Source: Acidimicrobiia bacterium
GTDB lineage: Bacteria > Actinomycetota > Acidimicrobiia > Acidimicrobiales > AC-14
NCBI GenBank assembly: GCA_023265045.1
Contig: JAHFUQ010000029.1
Location: forward strand, 1-34,415
Reading direction: 5' to 3'
Length of the DNA: 34,415 nucleotides
Positions within the stretch are counted from its first letter, which is position 1, and the number at the start of each line of letters is the position of its first letter. Positions 19,291 to 27,894 of the stretch are shown here, piece by piece. Position numbers and translations under genes: made by a program. The notes under the pieces were generated by a model, which was not told the DNA's origin, ran no database searches, and worked only from the letters and a program-made list of their open reading frames with translations.

Positions 19291-20250
19291 CTACGGTCGT
19301 GCGCCGTGTTCCTCGGTGAGGACCTTCTTCCGCTGCTCGTCCTGGCCCTCGGCGGCGCGCTGGCCGTGGGCAATGCGCTCGCGCTCGTGCGCCCGCCGCG
19401 CGACGCCAAGCCCGGCGAGCTGGCCCGCGCCCCGGTGGGCCGGAGCCTGACCATGATGGTCATCGGCATCGTCGCCGCGCTGTGGGCGATCGCGAGCCTG
19501 GTCAGCTAGCGCCGCCAGCCGGCGCTGGGTGGTTCGTTTCAAGCGCGTCAGCTCGGTCCACGTGAACCGGCCCGGCAACCACCCCGTGGCAGCCACGACT
19601 GCGGTCTCCCGCATGGCGTCGTAGACGGGCTGGTCTTTGTGGTGCTGCCCGTCCAGCTCGATGAACAGGCCGAGCCCGGGCCACGCCAGGTCCAGGCGGG
19701 CGTGGCCCACCTCGAGCTGGCGGACCGGGTCGGGCAGTCCCGGCACGGTTCGCGCCAGCTGGACCATCAGCGTCTCGAGCAGGCTCTCGGTCGGGGGCGC
19801 GCCCGGCGGCCGGCGGGCGAGCACCCGCCGGATGCGGCCCCGCGCGGGCAAGTCGCCCAGCGCCGCCCGCCCCTTGCGCAACGCTGATTCGAGCGCCTGC
19901 TCCCAGGCGTCGTCGGTGAGCGTCGACGCCAAGTCGACGAGTGTTTGCAGGCCGTCGGCGCACCGCACGTCGCCCACCACGACCACCCGGTCCTCGGGGA
20001 GCGTGCGCCGCCGCAGCGGCCGGTCGTCCAGCACGACGCCGTCCAGCCCGTGCAGCACGCCCGCCAGCGCGCCGCTCGCCACGCCTCCGCTCGCCAACAC
20101 CCGCGCCCGCTGGCGGTCCAGCTTGCTCGGCTCCTCCGGCCCCATGGCGTACACGCCCCGCTGGACGCGCCGCCACTTCCCCTTGCGCTCGCCCCACCGC
20201 AGCGCGGCCGATGTCTCGCCTGAGTCCTCCGTTGTGAACAGGTGGCGCAT
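19291..20250 (-). CDS. DUF559-type (AbiEi-like) protein with readthrough C-terminal tail
   Basis: About 319 residues. The N-terminal region (ALRWGERKGKWRRVQRGVYA, then RARVLASGGVASGALAGVLH) is the winged-helix domain found in AbiEi-like antitoxins. The C-terminal domain (LDLAWPGLGLFIELDGQHHK, then FTWTELTRLKRTTQRRLAAL) matches the DUF559/Vsr-like endonuclease-like fold, with Glu in FIELDG as expected for the metal site. The domain should end near 19510, but the frame continues about 70 residues into low-complexity sequence antisense to a small plus-strand gene. Codon choice in that tail is poor, so the original stop was probably lost. TAG and TGA in the other frames lie right at the junction. 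Start ATG 20250 has a GGGGG 7 nt upstream. No cognate toxin is adjacent. Confidence 0.75.
   Translation of the reverse strand: MRHLFTTEDSGETSAALRWGERKGKWRRVQRGVYAMGPEEPSKLDRQRARVLASGGVASGALAGVLHGLDGVVLDDRPLRRRTLPEDRVVVVGDVRCADGLQTLVDLASTLTDDAWEQALESALRKGRAALGDLPARGRIRRVLARRPPGAPPTESLLETLMVQLARTVPGLPDPVRQLEVGHARLDLAWPGLGLFIELDGQHHKDQPVYDAMRETAVVAATGWLPGRFTWTELTRLKRTTQRRLAALADQARDRPQRGDDADDHHGQAPAHRGAGQLAGLGVARRAHERERIAHGQRAAEGQDEQRKKVLTEEHGARP
19306..19509 (+). CDS. Small two-helix membrane protein
   Basis: A 67-residue protein with two hydrophobic helices, LLPLLVLALGGALAVGNALA and LTMMVIGIVAALWAIASLV, joined by a hydrophilic loop VRPPRDAKPGELARAPVGRS. Third codon positions are almost all G or C, clearly better than in the opposing frame, so I take this as a real gene. 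It starts at GTG 19306, 8 nt after a TACGGT -10 (19292-19297), so it is probably nearly leaderless. It lies entirely within the 3' extension of the minus-strand DUF559-type gene. Function is unknown; the predicted location is the cytoplasmic membrane. Confidence 0.65.
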   Translation: MFLGEDLLPLLVLALGGALAVGNALALVRPPRDAKPGELARAPVGRSLTMMVIGIVAALWAIASLVS

Positions 20251-22803: not shown

Positions 22804-24594
22804 CTACCCGAGCGCCGCGTATGTCATGGGCTGCTTCATCATCGGGTTGCCGTTCTCGGCGAGGCCGATCAGCTTCTCCAACAGGTCGGCCACGAACTTC
22901 CGGTCCCGCCACTCGGCCGGGATCGCTTCCCACGCGCCGTCGAAGACTTGAAAGAATCCCTCGATGACGGCCGAATCACGGATCGTCACAAAGCGAGTTC
23001 CGGACCCATCCGGAGGTAAACCTACGAAAAACAATGCCGTCTGCGTGCACGACCAATACGACTTCCCGACCGGCACAGGGACCGCGTCGGGGGACTGGAC
23101 GAGTCCCACTTCGTACTGGGTCGAACTGCGCAGGAGCTCGACCACACCACGCATGTGTTCGATGCGATCCTCCTGCGTCAACTCCATCCCACCGAAGAGC
23201 GGATCGTGCTCGACGAAAAGCCGGCCGATGCTCCTGCGGTCGGGTTCGTCGGTCCCCGCGAGGTACGCATGAATGGCCGGGATCGTGCACAGGTGCTGAT
23301 TCAGGTCGATCGTGCTGGACTGAATCGCGTTCCACCTCCGGAGCCGGTTCTCGGTCAGCTTGTCGATGAGGGGAATCTGCTCGTCGGTCGCGACCAGCCG
23401 GAGCCGCGCGGCCAGCTTCAGGGTGAGGTAGGGCTGCATCGTCGCCGCCACCAGGCCCGACTTCAGGAGGACACGGCGGCCCCCTTTGACCGTCGCGTCC
23501 GTCAAAGCCTCGTCAAACACGACCTTCGCCGGAAGCGGCGTGAGCCATTTCCTGGTGTCCTCTTTCGACGCGATCTGGGCTGGCTTCGTAGGGCCTTTCG
23601 GGACGGTCGGCGGATCGTTCGAGTACAGCATTGTGATGATCCGGGTTGCCTTGGCGCGCAAGACGTGGGCGCCACGCGCCAGATTTCGGCACGCCTCGAG
23701 GTACGGCGTTTGCCACGGAAAGTAGGTGCCGGCGGTCCCATTGGCGTACATTTGGAGGACGCCTTGCCCGGGCGCAACGATGAGCTCGACCGCGGATTCA
23801 CCAGCTGACCCATCCGGCGACGAACCGTCACGGGGCAGTGCCAGCGGGAGATACTCGCGGCCGCGGCTGACCAAGGAAACGAGGTCGCGGACGCGGTCAA
23901 TCTGGCGATTGGTGTCCTCCTCGGGGGTCACGAGGTGCACGACCGTCCAACCATGGCCGACGGCGTCTTTGAGCGGCGACTGCCAGTCGAGGTCGGCGCG
24001 CTCGAGCGACGGCGACAGGACGAGCAGCACCGTGTCCAGCTCGGTGTCGCACGACTCCACCGGTTCCGCCGGCGCGGCCGGCGGCCCGGCGTCGGCGGCC
24101 CGCTCGAGCAGGGCGACCGCGTACTGGAGGCAGTGGGTCCGCCCCGTGAGGGAGTGGAACGAGTTGAGCGCGGGGGAGTGTTGCGCGCCCCCCTCGGGCT
24201 TCGCCCGCTCGCCACCGTGATCATCGTCGGCGGGCGACGGGTTCGCCAGTTCCTGGACGAGTCGGGTGGTTGCCCGGCTGGCCGGGCGTTTCATGCTCAA
24301 GGCCCGCTCGATGACGGCGGCGTCGAACGCCGCGACGAGGCTCGGATCGGCTGGCGGCAGCGCCGCCAACTGCTCGACCCAGTTCCGGCTGGGGAACTTT
24401 CGACTACTTTCGCAGTCCGAGATGTAGCTCCGCTGCACGCCCGTGAGCCGGAACAGCTCTGAGACCGATTTCCCGAGCGTTTCCCGGCGCCGTCGGAGCA
24501 GGTCGCCGAACAGCGGCGGCTCCTTCTCGCGGTTGAGCCCGCCAAGGCTCCCCGACCCTGAACCGCGATGCTGCGAAGACGATTCTTTTAGCAC
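22804..24594 (-). CDS. XRE-family regulator with large uncharacterised effector domain
   Basis: About 596 residues. After a polar N-terminus, FGDLLRRRRETLGKSVSELF then RLTGVQRSYISDCESSRKFP is a clear XRE helix-turn-helix (about residues 28-80). The remaining 500 residues match no family I can name. An acidic linker is followed by alpha/beta stretches such as DTVLLVLSPSLERADLDWQS, GWTVVHLVTPEEDTNRQIDR, VELIVAPGQGVLQMYANGTA and LGRGAH-type helices. A C-terminal block (VGKSYWSCTQTALFFVGLPP, RFVTIRDSAVIEGFFQVFDG) looks like a conserved sensor or effector domain. GTG 24594, preceded by a GGGGG run 8 nt upstream, is the best start. The promoter region carries repeated AGTG boxes, which suggests autoregulation. 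Confidence 0.75.
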   Translation of the reverse strand: MLKESSSQHRGSGSGSLGGLNREKEPPLFGDLLRRRRETLGKSVSELFRLTGVQRSYISDCESSRKFPSRNWVEQLAALPPADPSLVAAFDAAVIERALSMKRPASRATTRLVQELANPSPADDDHGGERAKPEGGAQHSPALNSFHSLTGRTHCLQYAVALLERAADAGPPAAPAEPVESCDTELDTVLLVLSPSLERADLDWQSPLKDAVGHGWTVVHLVTPEEDTNRQIDRVRDLVSLVSRGREYLPLALPRDGSSPDGSAGESAVELIVAPGQGVLQMYANGTAGTYFPWQTPYLEACRNLARGAHVLRAKATRIITMLYSNDPPTVPKGPTKPAQIASKEDTRKWLTPLPAKVVFDEALTDATVKGGRRVLLKSGLVAATMQPYLTLKLAARLRLVATDEQIPLIDKLTENRLRRWNAIQSSTIDLNQHLCTIPAIHAYLAGTDEPDRRSIGRLFVEHDPLFGGMELTQEDRIEHMRGVVELLRSSTQYEVGLVQSPDAVPVPVGKSYWSCTQTALFFVGLPPDGSGTRFVTIRDSAVIEGFFQVFDGAWEAIPAEWRDRKFVADLLEKLIGLAENGNPMMKQPMTYAALG

Positions 24595-24630
24595 GCGCCC
24601 GGCCCCCTGTGGATCATCCGCCCGCCACCA

Positions 24631-24680
24631 AGTGCGGACGCTAGTGACAGAAGTGATGGTGACGCAAGTGTCAAGTGTAA
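24631..24680 (-). promoter_or_regulatory. Promoter with tandem AGTG boxes for the XRE regulator
   Basis: AGTG occurs on plus at 24631, 24643, 24652, 24667 and 24674, with GGTGACG at about 24658, all in one orientation. On minus, TTGCGT (24667-24662), an 18-bp spacer and TAGCGT (24643-24638) form a reasonable promoter about 40 nt upstream of GTG 24594. The boxes cover the -35, spacer and -10, as expected for a repressor or cooperative operator. Confidence 0.5.
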
Positions 24681-24884
24681 ACCTCTCGGAGTGAGCGCAG
24701 CAACGCGTCGGGTGCTCATAGGGTGCCAGATTCCGTTCAGTCTCCGGGGAACTTACCCTCGATGCACCCGATCCGCTCGGGGCTGTGCCCTTGCGTTGGC
24801 CGGTCGGCGGCCGCTCCTGGGCGGGAAACCGGCCCTGCAACCTGCAACCGCCAGGCGCAGGTGGCGCAGCGCCGCAGGAGGTGT

Positions 24885-24890
24885 TAAGTT
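24885..24890 (+). promoter_or_regulatory. Extended -10 of the small-peptide transcript
   Basis: TGTTAAGTT (24882-24890) is an extended -10 (TGN + TAAGTT). Transcription should start near 24897, giving a leader of about 149 nt before the peptide's GTG at 25046. A GTG lies exactly at 24897, so a leaderless upstream ORF (24897-25175) reading through the leader is possible. Confidence 0.5.
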
Positions 24891-24896
24891 CCAGCC

Positions 24897-25048
24897 GTGG
24901 ACGCGGATCAGCAAGGCTCTAGGCAAGCCAGGCGCCGACCCGCGTTCCGTTCGGAACAGACGAGGGCCCGCGTGGTTCCGCAGGCCTCCCGCGTTGACAC
25001 CGGCAGTCTGTCACGTGGGCCCTCCAGAGTCGAGGAGGAGCCCACGTG
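24897..25048 (+). promoter_or_regulatory. Two-state 5' leader that can hide the SD and start codon
   Basis: Sequestering form: CACGTGGGC (25012-25020) pairs with GCCCACGTG (25040-25048) and CCTCC (25021-25025) pairs with GGAGG (25034-25038). This is a 14-bp stem with one bulged A and an 8-nt loop, and it hides both the SD and the GTG. Alternative form: GAGGGCCCGCGTG (24962-24974) pairs over 13 bp, with one G-U, with 25012-25024, freeing SD and start. Upstream, ACGCGG/CCGCGT (24901-24906, 24940-24945) encloses a GGCT/AGCC hairpin, and GTTCC-GTTC-GGAAC (24944-24957) follows, a possible sensor region. No known riboswitch class is recognised. Confidence 0.65.
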
Positions 25049-25183
25049 GATGCCATCGAGACCAAGGCCGGGGGGCGCTCGCGCGCCGTTGGCCTCAGAG
25101 TTGGCCTTGTCAGCTTCGCCGTTGTGGCGATCCAGGTCGCGACCGTCGTCACGGCCTGGGCCAATGGGTGCGTAAATGGTTAG
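25046..25183 (+). CDS. 45-residue single-pass membrane peptide
   Basis: A short gene starting at GTG 25046 with GGAGGAG 7 nt upstream. The peptide has a hydrophilic, basic N-terminus (VDAIETKAGGRSRAVGLR), one hydrophobic helix (VGLVSFAVVAIQVATVVTAW) and a short tail ANGCVNG with one Cys. Its SD and start codon are buried in a 14-bp hairpin, so translation should be off by default. It lies between two large regulators: divergent from the XRE gene and convergent, 7 nt apart, with the XRE-NB-ARC-TPR gene. Size, one helix and repressed translation resemble type I toxins or small membrane signalling peptides, but I recognise no family. Overlapping frames are less convincing. Confidence 0.6.
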   Translation: MDAIETKAGGRSRAVGLRVGLVSFAVVAIQVATVVTAWANGCVNG

Positions 25184-25190
25184 CGCGTAG

Positions 25191-27659
25191 CTAACTGTTC
25201 AAACGGGCCTTCAGCACCGGGGCCCGTGGGGCGGAGGCCGGGGCGGAGTCGCCCCGGCCTCCGTTCGGTTCGTCGTGCGCCAGGGCCACCGCGTCCTCCA
25301 GGCTCAACGTCCGGCCAAAGGCGAGGTGCCGGGTGCACGCGCCCCCGTCGAGGCGGCGACGGCAGACGGCCAGCGCCTCGGCGTGGAGGTCCTCGTCGTC
25401 CGCCAGCGAGGCCCCCAACCGCGCCAGCTCCGCCTCGGCCGCGCCCAGCAGCCGGGCGGCGCGATGGTGGCGGCCGTCGAGGTTGGCGAGCGTCGCCAGC
25501 ACGATCAAGCTCTCGGCGGCGCGCCGGCCTTCGCCCACGTGCCCGAACACGCTCAGCGCGTCGAGCTGTCGTTGCTGCGCCTCGGCGTGACGGCCCATGC
25601 GCATGGCGATGCGCCCGAGGGCGGCCTCGGTGATGGCGAGCCCGCGGACGTCGCGGAGGTCCCGCTGCACGCGGCGGCACGCCGCCATCCACTCGGTGGC
25701 CTCGGCGTAGTTGGCGAGCTGCTCGCTGAGAAATCCCAGGTTGCTGAGGCATCGCGCCTCGTTGAAGGCGTCCTTCACTTGGCGGAAGAGCGCGGCCGAC
25801 CGGATCCAAAGGTCGCAGGCGCGATCGAACTCGCCCCGCCGTCGGGAGATCCAGCCTTGGCCGACCAGGGCCGACGCCTCTCCGCGGCGGTCGCCCAGCT
25901 CGAGGTAGCGGGCGAGCGCGTTGGCGAAGCAGTCGTCGGCCTCGTCCAGGCGGTCGAGTTGATCGGCGAGGGCGCCCTTGTTCAACCACGCGAGGGCAGC
26001 CACGTCGCTGAGCCCCAACTCGTCGGCCAGCGCCAACGCGCCGTCGAGCGCCGTCCCGGCGTCGTCGAACCTTCCGAGGACCCAGCCCAGGGAGCCGGCC
26101 GCGGCGAGGGCGGCGGCCCGGGCCGGCGTCGGCGCCGGCGCGGCCGCCAGCGCTTGGTCCAACCATCGCGCCCCCGTGGGCAGGGCGCGCAAGAGCAAGT
26201 ATCGCCAGAGGCAGGTCGACAGCTCGAGGGCGGCGTGCGGGTTGTGGACGAGCGCCCAGTCGAACGCCGCCCGCAGGTTCTCGAAGTCCGCCGCCAGCGC
26301 GTCGGCGCACCCAACCTGGTCGCCCCCGAGGAGCCCCTTGCCCTTGTCGGCTGCGAAGCGCAGGAAGAAGGCGAGGTGCGCCTGGCGGGCGCTTTCGGCT
26401 TCACCCGACTCAACGAGTCGTGCCAGGGCGAAGGCCCGGATCGTCGCCAGGAACTCGAAGCGGGGCCCGCCGGGCGCATCCGGCCGGGCGTTGAGCAGGC
26501 TTTGGCGCGACAGGCTGGCGAGATGGCGCCAACTGTCGCCGGTTCCGCAGACGGCCGTCGCGGCGTCGGCGCTGCAGCCGCCTGCAAACACGGCGAGGCG
26601 GGCGAAGGTTCGCTGCTCGTCGGCGTCGAGCAGGCTCCAGCTCCAACCGATCGCACTCGACAGCGTCGACTGGTGCGAGGGCAGGTCCACCGGCGCCACC
26701 CCGGCCGCGTCCATCTCGTCGAGGGTGAGGTCGATTCGGTTGGGGTCGGTCGTGCGCACCAGGCCGGCGGCGAGGACGATGGCGAGCGGGATGCCGTCCA
26801 GCCGGGCGCAGGCACGGGCCACCGCGTGGCGGTTGTCCTCGGTCAGCCGGAAGGGCGGCCACGCCATGACCGCCCGGGTGACGAACAACTCGACGGCCGC
26901 GCAGCCTGCGACCTCATCGAGCGACGCGCCGCCGTCGACGTCAGGCACCCGGAGCGGCGCCAGCGCGTAGAGGTGCTCGCCCACCAGCCCCAGCGGCTCA
27001 CGGCTCGTGACGAGCACCGAGATGCGGGGGGCCTCGGTCAACAGCCGGACGACGAATCCGCTCGCGGCCTTGACGTGCTCCCAGTTGTCGAGGACCACCA
27101 GGGCATGCTGGGGCCTCCAGTGGTTCACGACCGCGTCCGCCGGGTCGACGTCGTTGCGGTCGTCGAGGCCGAGCGCGCGCTGGATGTGCGACGTGACATC
27201 GCCCGCGTCCTGAATCTCGAGCAGCGAGATCCAGGACGCGCCGGAGAGGAAGCGCGCGTCGAGGCGGTTCGCGACCTCCATGGCGAGGCGCGTCTTGCCG
27301 ATCCCGGGCGGCCCGACGAGGGTCACGCAGCGGGCCGGCCCTGTCAGCATCGACACGATCCGCTCAACGTCGATGTCGCGACCGACAAGCGTGTCGGACG
27401 GCGAGGGAAGTGAGCTATGGCAGCCGCCGGCCGTCGACGCGTGCAGAAGCGTTTCCGGCGGTTGGCCGGCGACCTGCGACAGTCGGGCGAGGAACTGGCG
27501 CGACGGCGGCCGGGCGCCGCCCTCGATCTTCACCAGGTACGTGACGTCATAGCCGAGTGTGTCCGCGAGGTCCTTCTGGGTAAGGCGACGGTCGTGCCGC
27601 CACGATCGAAGCCACACGCCAAACTCGCGTTCCCGCACTGCCTCCGCGCCCCCCGTCAT
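25191..27659 (-). CDS. XRE-NB-ARC (STAND)-TPR transcriptional regulator
   Basis: About 822 residues. The N-terminal XRE helix-turn-helix reads FGVWLRSWRHDRRLTQKDLA then DTLGYDVTYLVKIEGGARPP. A STAND/NB-ARC ATPase follows: Walker A VGPPGIGKTRLA (about 116-123), Walker B ALVVLDNWEHV, sensor LVTSREPLGL and the GIPLAIVLAAGLV motif. The last 350 residues are TPR-like repeats (WLNKGALADQLDRLDEADDC, LVGQGWISRRRGEFDRACDL, CLSNLGFLSEQLANYAEATE). This AfsR/MalT-like design senses a ligand or partner on the TPR arch and switches by ATP. ATG 27659 is preferred, with AGGTGAGG just upstream, over GTG 27668. Its target and ligand are unknown; the neighbouring small peptide is a candidate ligand. Confidence 0.92.
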   Translation of the reverse strand: MTGGAEAVREREFGVWLRSWRHDRRLTQKDLADTLGYDVTYLVKIEGGARPPSRQFLARLSQVAGQPPETLLHASTAGGCHSSLPSPSDTLVGRDIDVERIVSMLTGPARCVTLVGPPGIGKTRLAMEVANRLDARFLSGASWISLLEIQDAGDVTSHIQRALGLDDRNDVDPADAVVNHWRPQHALVVLDNWEHVKAASGFVVRLLTEAPRISVLVTSREPLGLVGEHLYALAPLRVPDVDGGASLDEVAGCAAVELFVTRAVMAWPPFRLTEDNRHAVARACARLDGIPLAIVLAAGLVRTTDPNRIDLTLDEMDAAGVAPVDLPSHQSTLSSAIGWSWSLLDADEQRTFARLAVFAGGCSADAATAVCGTGDSWRHLASLSRQSLLNARPDAPGGPRFEFLATIRAFALARLVESGEAESARQAHLAFFLRFAADKGKGLLGGDQVGCADALAADFENLRAAFDWALVHNPHAALELSTCLWRYLLLRALPTGARWLDQALAAAPAPTPARAAALAAAGSLGWVLGRFDDAGTALDGALALADELGLSDVAALAWLNKGALADQLDRLDEADDCFANALARYLELGDRRGEASALVGQGWISRRRGEFDRACDLWIRSAALFRQVKDAFNEARCLSNLGFLSEQLANYAEATEWMAACRRVQRDLRDVRGLAITEAALGRIAMRMGRHAEAQQRQLDALSVFGHVGEGRRAAESLIVLATLANLDGRHHRAARLLGAAEAELARLGASLADDEDLHAEALAVCRRRLDGGACTRHLAFGRTLSLEDAVALAHDEPNGGRGDSAPASAPRAPVLKARLNS

Positions 27660-27894
27660 GCGCCTCACCTTCCACGTGCGTCGTTGCCCCCGGCCACGTC
27701 CGGTGACGAGCGCGCGTGGCGGTAGTGCCGCGAAAATGTCGTGCGCCGTCGCCTGACTCCCGTATTCCAGCGCGCCGCGGACTTGCAGTCAAACGCCCCC
27801 GGAAATGGGTTAGGGGATTTCCTTCACGGCGGCGCGCACCTAGGGGCTTCTCCTGGTTGTCTCAGTTTGTCTCTTCCGCGTCGAGGCCGGTGTC

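Follow-up and report, generated by a model that had tools for sequence, protein, structure and literature searches.

A leader hairpin and a small predicted secreted-peptide gene convergent with an HTH-NB-ARC-TPR gene: a candidate signal and receptor pair in Acidimicrobiia

The window analysed in this study, a whole stretch of 34,415 nucleotides, is contig G000:C24 of a draft genome of an Acidimicrobiia bacterium (4.3 Mb in 323 contigs). On its forward strand lies a small gene (25046-25183) with a GTG start, which encodes a 45-residue precursor, MDAIETKAGGRSRAVGLRVGLVSFAVVAIQVATVVTAWANGCVNG, that has a basic N-terminus, a hydrophobic stretch, an AWA site (25154-25162) and a six-residue tail, the codons at 25163-25180 specifying the predicted mature hexapeptide NGCVNG. 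Tail to tail with this gene, with 7 bp between the two stops, the reverse strand carries a gene (25191-27668) for an 825-aa HTH_31-NB-ARC-TPR (STAND) regulator, the predicted receptor. A 14-bp perfect GC-rich hairpin (25232-25263, forward strand) lies 3' of the peptide gene and within the 3' end of the receptor gene; it is the probable terminator of the peptide mRNA and was not called by the terminator scan because it has no trailing T run. The hairpins 3' of the peptide gene also give the best of the sub-threshold Rfam matches, to the ar35 sRNA (25166-25268, forward strand; 34.1 bits, gathering score 45), and this region is probably a terminator-like structure. Divergent from the peptide gene is a second HTH_31 gene (22804-24540, reverse strand), with an uncertain start codon. 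Further away, the product of a reverse-strand gene at 19291-20250 shows AbiEi-like (antitoxin) matches as well as DUF559 (nuclease-like) ones.

Upstream of the peptide gene, positions 25012-25025 (CACGTGGGCCCTCC) pair with 25034-25048 (GGAGGAGCCCACGTG) to form a 14-bp stem of 9 + 5 bp, in which both the SD (GGAGG, 25034-25038) and the GTG start (25046-25048) are buried. The same left arm can instead pair, through 25012-25024, with 24962-24974 (GAGGGCCCGCGTG) in an alternative 13-bp helix with one G-U. Both pairings had been described in an initial annotation of this DNA, and our base-by-base check bears them out and adds a bulged A25039 in the SD-burying stem, which was absent from that description. 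Folding of 24897-25060 gives the SD-burying state as the minimum free energy structure, at -79.3 kcal/mol, while the alternative state, when forced, reaches -69.7 kcal/mol, a penalty of 9.6 kcal/mol over the full leader. During simulated elongation, the best fold of nascent RNAs with a 3' end at 25026-25044 is the alternative, open-SD state, and by 25050 the SD-burying state dominates. None of 1000 dinucleotide shuffles gives an SD hairpin as strong, 1 shuffle in 2000 supplies the left arm with an upstream partner helix of 13 bp or more, and the 34-kb window holds no other competing pair with a helix longer than 10 bp; the whole leader has a folding z of -2.3. The results reveal that both helices are beyond chance and are not a by-product of base composition. 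Mutually exclusive helices, one of which frees the SD, are what marks a two-state leader, and the window has them. The Rfam search returned no family at gathering score for the leader, in agreement with the initial annotation, in which no known RNA class was recognised, and we identified neither a ligand domain nor a ligand-sensing RNA class in it. Two other proposals about this region fared less well. The upstream stems suggested as a sensor (24901-24957) are not distinguished from ordinary GC-rich folding, and the putative extended -10 (TGTTAAGTT, 24882-24890, forward strand) is weak. Of the six bases in its TAAGTT, 3 agree with TATAAT, and no promoter-like site emerged from the promoter scan, so the RNA start is putative. 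A leaderless 92-aa ORF from 24897 and a 167-aa ORF from 24691 were considered and are disfavoured as genes because they show no third-position GC excess (GC by codon position 0.64/0.72/0.72 and 0.69/0.71/0.64, respectively).

The ORF at 25046-25183 is a genuine gene and has acidimicrobiian relatives; its length of 45 residues and its GTG start are as given in the initial annotation. Sequence similarity among the relatives is weak, and it is the layout that is constant. At the receptor 3' end in G003:C28, G003:C38, G004:C48 and the window genome's own paralogue G000:C68 lies a small ORF that is antisense to the receptor gene and has this layout, and when tblastn was run position-blind with the window peptide alone, its sole match in G003 was the ORF adjoining the receptor gene. 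We also scanned 1.36 Mb of DNA blind, asking for a short ORF that carries an SD-like motif, basic residues near its N-terminus, a hydrophobic core and AxA followed by a short tail. This gave 8 matches, of which the 6 with a tail Cys all adjoin the six receptor homologues that score best. A new member among these, in G006:C9 (tail FPMCGY), sits on the divergent 5' side of its receptor gene; the rules of the scan were fixed once five members were known, so that only G006 counts as independent. There are thus six copies in four genomes of one family, and in every one of them the AxA is followed by a terminal stretch of exactly six residues that includes a Cys (NGCVNG in the window, EGCACG, NGCACG, EGCGCG, GPSCGC and FPMCGY). 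Even in G004, whose C-terminus reads AWAMAEGCGCG, a second AxA (AMA) keeps the tail at six residues. The relatives measure 36-58 aa, so that all precursors fall within the 10-100 aa range of RRNPP propeptides, and their putative secretion signal (basic N-region, hydrophobic core, AxA) was read by inspection and by script. In leave-one-out HMM searches against 23,652 ORFs, the two G003 peptides are securely related (E ~1e-10 to 1e-13), the window peptide (E 0.04-0.06) and that of G004 (E 0.004-0.02) are recovered weakly, and the G000:C68 peptide is not recovered, its membership coming from position and layout. The family is therefore drawn from sequence, position and constant layout together, similarity by itself being weak.

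Between the two G003 peptide genes, differences by codon position number 7, 4 and 15 over the last 29 codons, a third-position bias that is expected of a translated and constrained C-terminus. Over the whole ORF they number 20, 18 and 26, and the first half of this pair is therefore without such a bias; the G003:C28 peptide may instead begin at the internal ATG (L033:1350) picked in the blind scan. At 80 more distant NB-ARC-TPR loci no ORF of this kind was present at the 3' end, a search of phages and plasmids found no such peptide, and the peptide profile gave nothing convincing beyond the five query members in 298 genomes; its matches in G113 and G144 were inspected and have another gene context. 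A DNA pattern for the C-terminus has real matches only in G003 (two) and G004, the other matches that were inspected being out of context.

The receptor and peptide genes are direct neighbours in six of six cases, the arrangement by which RRNPP pairs are recognised, and the TPR repeats expected of an RRNPP receptor are also present, with a TPR_12 match at E 2.9e-15 and a superhelix in the model. Homologues of the receptor are encoded in G003 (two), G004 and G006, with two more in the genome of the window itself. The AlphaFold model of the receptor, built from four sequences, has a mean pLDDT of 73.5, with most of the TPR part above 85. A fold search with this model returns 6mfv, a STAND protein that has a TPR sensor, along with the TPR domain of LGN/Pins in its peptide-bound form and the pheromone-bound Rap of phage phi3T, and at the profile level the NB-ARC region of the receptor matches AfsR. 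Since every copy has an AxA with exactly six residues behind it and a TPR regulator alongside, a secreted peptide is indicated. Oligopeptide-binding proteins number 19 in G000, 10 in G003 and 11 in G004; such OppA-type proteins are common and thus unspecific as evidence of import.

Another finding concerns the leaders of the relatives, for which the cost of opening the SD was compared with that at 179 control gene starts. This cost is 12.7 kcal/mol in the window (reached by 0.6% of the 179 controls; p 0.011), 11.1 kcal/mol in G003:C38 (1.1%; p 0.017) and 18.4 kcal/mol in G004:C48 (0%; p 0.006), and with the window left out Fisher's p is 0.001. The SD is thus buried in two of three close relatives, or in three of four close members when the window is counted, the remaining one, G003:C28, being without a clear SD. 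The hairpin sequences of G003:C38 (GCTCTCCC...GGGGAGAGC) and G004 (GACCTCCTG-ACA-CAGGAGGTC) are unrelated to that of the window, and recurrence with unrelated sequence makes translational control a fair reading. The SD-opening measure was picked after an earlier and wider one (-45 to +12, 43 controls), by which only the window hairpin was exceptional and G003:C38 and G004 were inseparable from controls; because of this, the occlusion in the relatives is moderate evidence. We conclude from these comparisons that SD occlusion is probably a real and shared property. In the most distant members, G000:C68 and G006, SD opening is ordinary and there is no SD hairpin. The leader of the G000:C68 peptide (L061, reverse strand) forms a long nested rod, with outer arms CTCGTCGAC/GTCGACGAG and an inner GCCGGGC-GAAA-GCCCGGC, which stops just 5' of the SD and leaves it uncovered. 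Leaders cannot be aligned across genera, and a DNA search with 24600-25260 in 148 relatives gave chance matches only, the best of them (G049, 84% over the SD region) lying within a hydrolase gene.

What is observed, then, is a gene family with a secretory layout, a constant six-residue tail, a shared gene neighbourhood and an unusual SD occlusion in three of the four close members. Any signalling or switching is inferred from this. We consider it moderately probable that the locus comprises a leader and a small secreted-peptide gene whose product is the signal for a receptor encoded by the convergent HTH-NB-ARC-TPR gene, the leader hairpin repressing translation of the precursor. In the predicted course of events, Sec would export the 45-residue precursor and signal peptidase I would cut after AWA to release NGCVNG, which an oligopeptide permease would re-import. 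The TPR domain of the regulator would then bind the hexapeptide, and binding would alter the NTPase state and the DNA binding of the HTH regulator at putative targets. The hairpin over the SD and start codon would keep precursor translation low, or conditional on a regulated opening, and in the window genome the competing upstream arm could hold the SD open during transcription. A fuller version of this reading, which we put forward only tentatively, is quorum sensing in Acidimicrobiia by a secreted Cys hexapeptide that is read by an HTH-STAND-TPR receptor outside RRNPP, with an SD-burying leader that controls translation of the precursor and has, in the window genome, a co-transcriptional open state. 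In the openly accessible literature we found no description of such an arrangement.

RRNPP systems combine a small precursor that has a secretion signal and a C-terminal signal with an adjoining gene for a TPR protein, mostly a transcriptional regulator (PMC10075063, PMC9765709). The window pair resembles RRNPP/RRNPPA systems (Rap, Rgg, NprR, PlcR, PrgX, AimR) in its small, predicted secretory precursor, its short predicted mature peptide and its TPR neighbour, and the return of pheromone-bound phi3T Rap in the fold search adds to the likeness. It differs from them in a receptor that spans 825 aa and carries an NB-ARC (STAND) NTPase flanked by HTH and TPR, in a host from Actinomycetota instead of Bacillota, in genes that are mostly convergent and in a peptide with Cys. 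RRNPP receptors are defined and detected at 250-500 aa (PMC10075063), and because the 825-aa receptor lies outside this range the window pair is not an RRNPP member; by analogy, it is best read as a pair that would work like RRNPP quorum sensing. AfsR/SARP and other STAND-TPR regulators of Actinomycetota share NB-ARC and TPR with the window receptor, and AfsR is, by profile, the closest bacterial regulator of known structure. However, the window receptor has an XRE-type HTH_31 in place of the SARP DNA-binding domain, and it has a dedicated small peptide gene alongside. According to the 2023 RRNPP survey, Actinomycetota signals are typically small molecules made by enzymes, and oligopeptides are the language of Bacillota (PMC10075063). 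If the proposed pair is real, it would extend peptide signalling to Actinomycetota, a phylum rich in STAND-TPR regulators, and would provide a natural ligand for receptors of a class in which few ligands are known. It would also mean that the RRNPP size filter conceals related systems, the RRNPP detector missing the HTH-STAND-TPR class on account of its size. The predicted six-residue tails are short enough for synthesis and direct testing.

The leading alternative for the peptide is that it is a RiPP precursor, since a radical SAM/SPASM maturase lies beside the G000:C68 paralogue. The Cys tail would then be a core peptide that a maturase modifies, with the TPR protein acting as cluster regulator or biosynthetic partner, on the model of cyclophane (HaaT-type) or ranthipeptide clusters. 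HaaA/HaaT cyclophane and radical SAM ranthipeptide clusters likewise place a TPR protein beside a small peptide gene, and in NCBIfam the receptor and its relatives score best against HaaT. However, the HaaT scores are 67-86 bits (66.7 for the window receptor) against a cut-off of 1125, and the window peptide has a single Cys. The maturase likeness is confined to the G000:C68 paralogue, where a PapB-like enzyme and a second Cys-rich C-terminus (ICTCNCIPVG) occur just upstream of the peptide; among the part of the neighbours that was scanned, no radical SAM protein was recognised near the window, G003 and G004 pairs. On this balance we regard a RiPP precursor as unlikely. The PapB-like radical SAM/SPASM maturase of G000:C68 lies at L064:10901-12355 (reverse strand) and is followed by an ORF (L064:10420-10944, reverse strand) with a lipoprotein- or Tat-like start and the Cys-rich C-terminus GACGSPIPPGAICTCNCIPVG, possibly a ranthipeptide-type cluster beside the paralogous peptide/TPR pair.

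It is similarly doubtful that the inverted repeats serve as DNA operators, bound by the HTH regulators encoded nearby, with the RNA hairpin arising as a by-product. Two HTH proteins are encoded next to the peptide gene, and the leaders of the window and of G003 contain CGTGGG/CCCACG half-sites, but no 12-mer is common to the upstream regions better than in shuffles. RNA occlusion fits better than a single operator because in G004 and G003:C38 the inverted repeat covers the SD with other bases.

A two-state RNA switch controlling the peptide, be it a riboswitch, a thermosensor or an attenuator, appears to us still less probable. In its favour are the two strong exclusive helices of the window and the open state through which the nascent RNA passes, and, as with SD-sequestering hairpins and translational riboswitches, SD and start are paired and an upstream arm can free both. 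Unlike a translational riboswitch, however, the window leader has no Rfam family, ligand domain or conserved alternative pairing. The SD hairpin recurs in relatives, but the competing arm is absent from G003:C38 and G004, where the best upstream helix has 5 and 4 bp, within the shuffle range; since the arm occurs only in the window, so does any two-state switch, which is without support outside it. A thermosensor at growth temperature is unlikely because the buried state is favoured by 9.6 kcal/mol. The mutually exclusive pairings of the initial annotation thus stand for the window itself and lack support in the relatives. The G003 paralogues share a foldable 76-nt leader block that is ~90% identical, above the 69% of their receptor genes and the 63% of their peptide ORFs, and under one of two possible registers a C-G pair in it is replaced by U-A. 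In the register chosen, however, RNAalifold counts zero pairs with both sides changed, and a covariance model of the block finds no match in the leaders of other members. The block (L033:1178-1253 and L054:4203-4278, reverse strand) is more conserved than the genes 3' of it.

Occluded SDs are also found in several type I toxin mRNAs, and the peptide is small with one hydrophobic stretch, but a type I toxin or other membrane-acting small peptide is very improbable given the constant AxA and six-residue polar Cys tail of all members, the pairing with a regulator gene, the lack of a PADLOC match for the peptide and of any recognised antisense RNA gene (mRNA from the convergent receptor gene could itself be antisense to the 3' end of the peptide gene), so that of the initial proposal of a toxin or signal it is the signal that fits.

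The divergent HTH_31 protein (22804-24540) has a large C-terminal region without a family, and its model (mean pLDDT 37.5) is uninformative beyond the HTH. In a search of 198 relatives and 286 genomes of the phylum, two partly overlapping sets, a homologue was found only in G004, at 40% identity and again adjoining the peptide gene, and the protein may be a target or partner.
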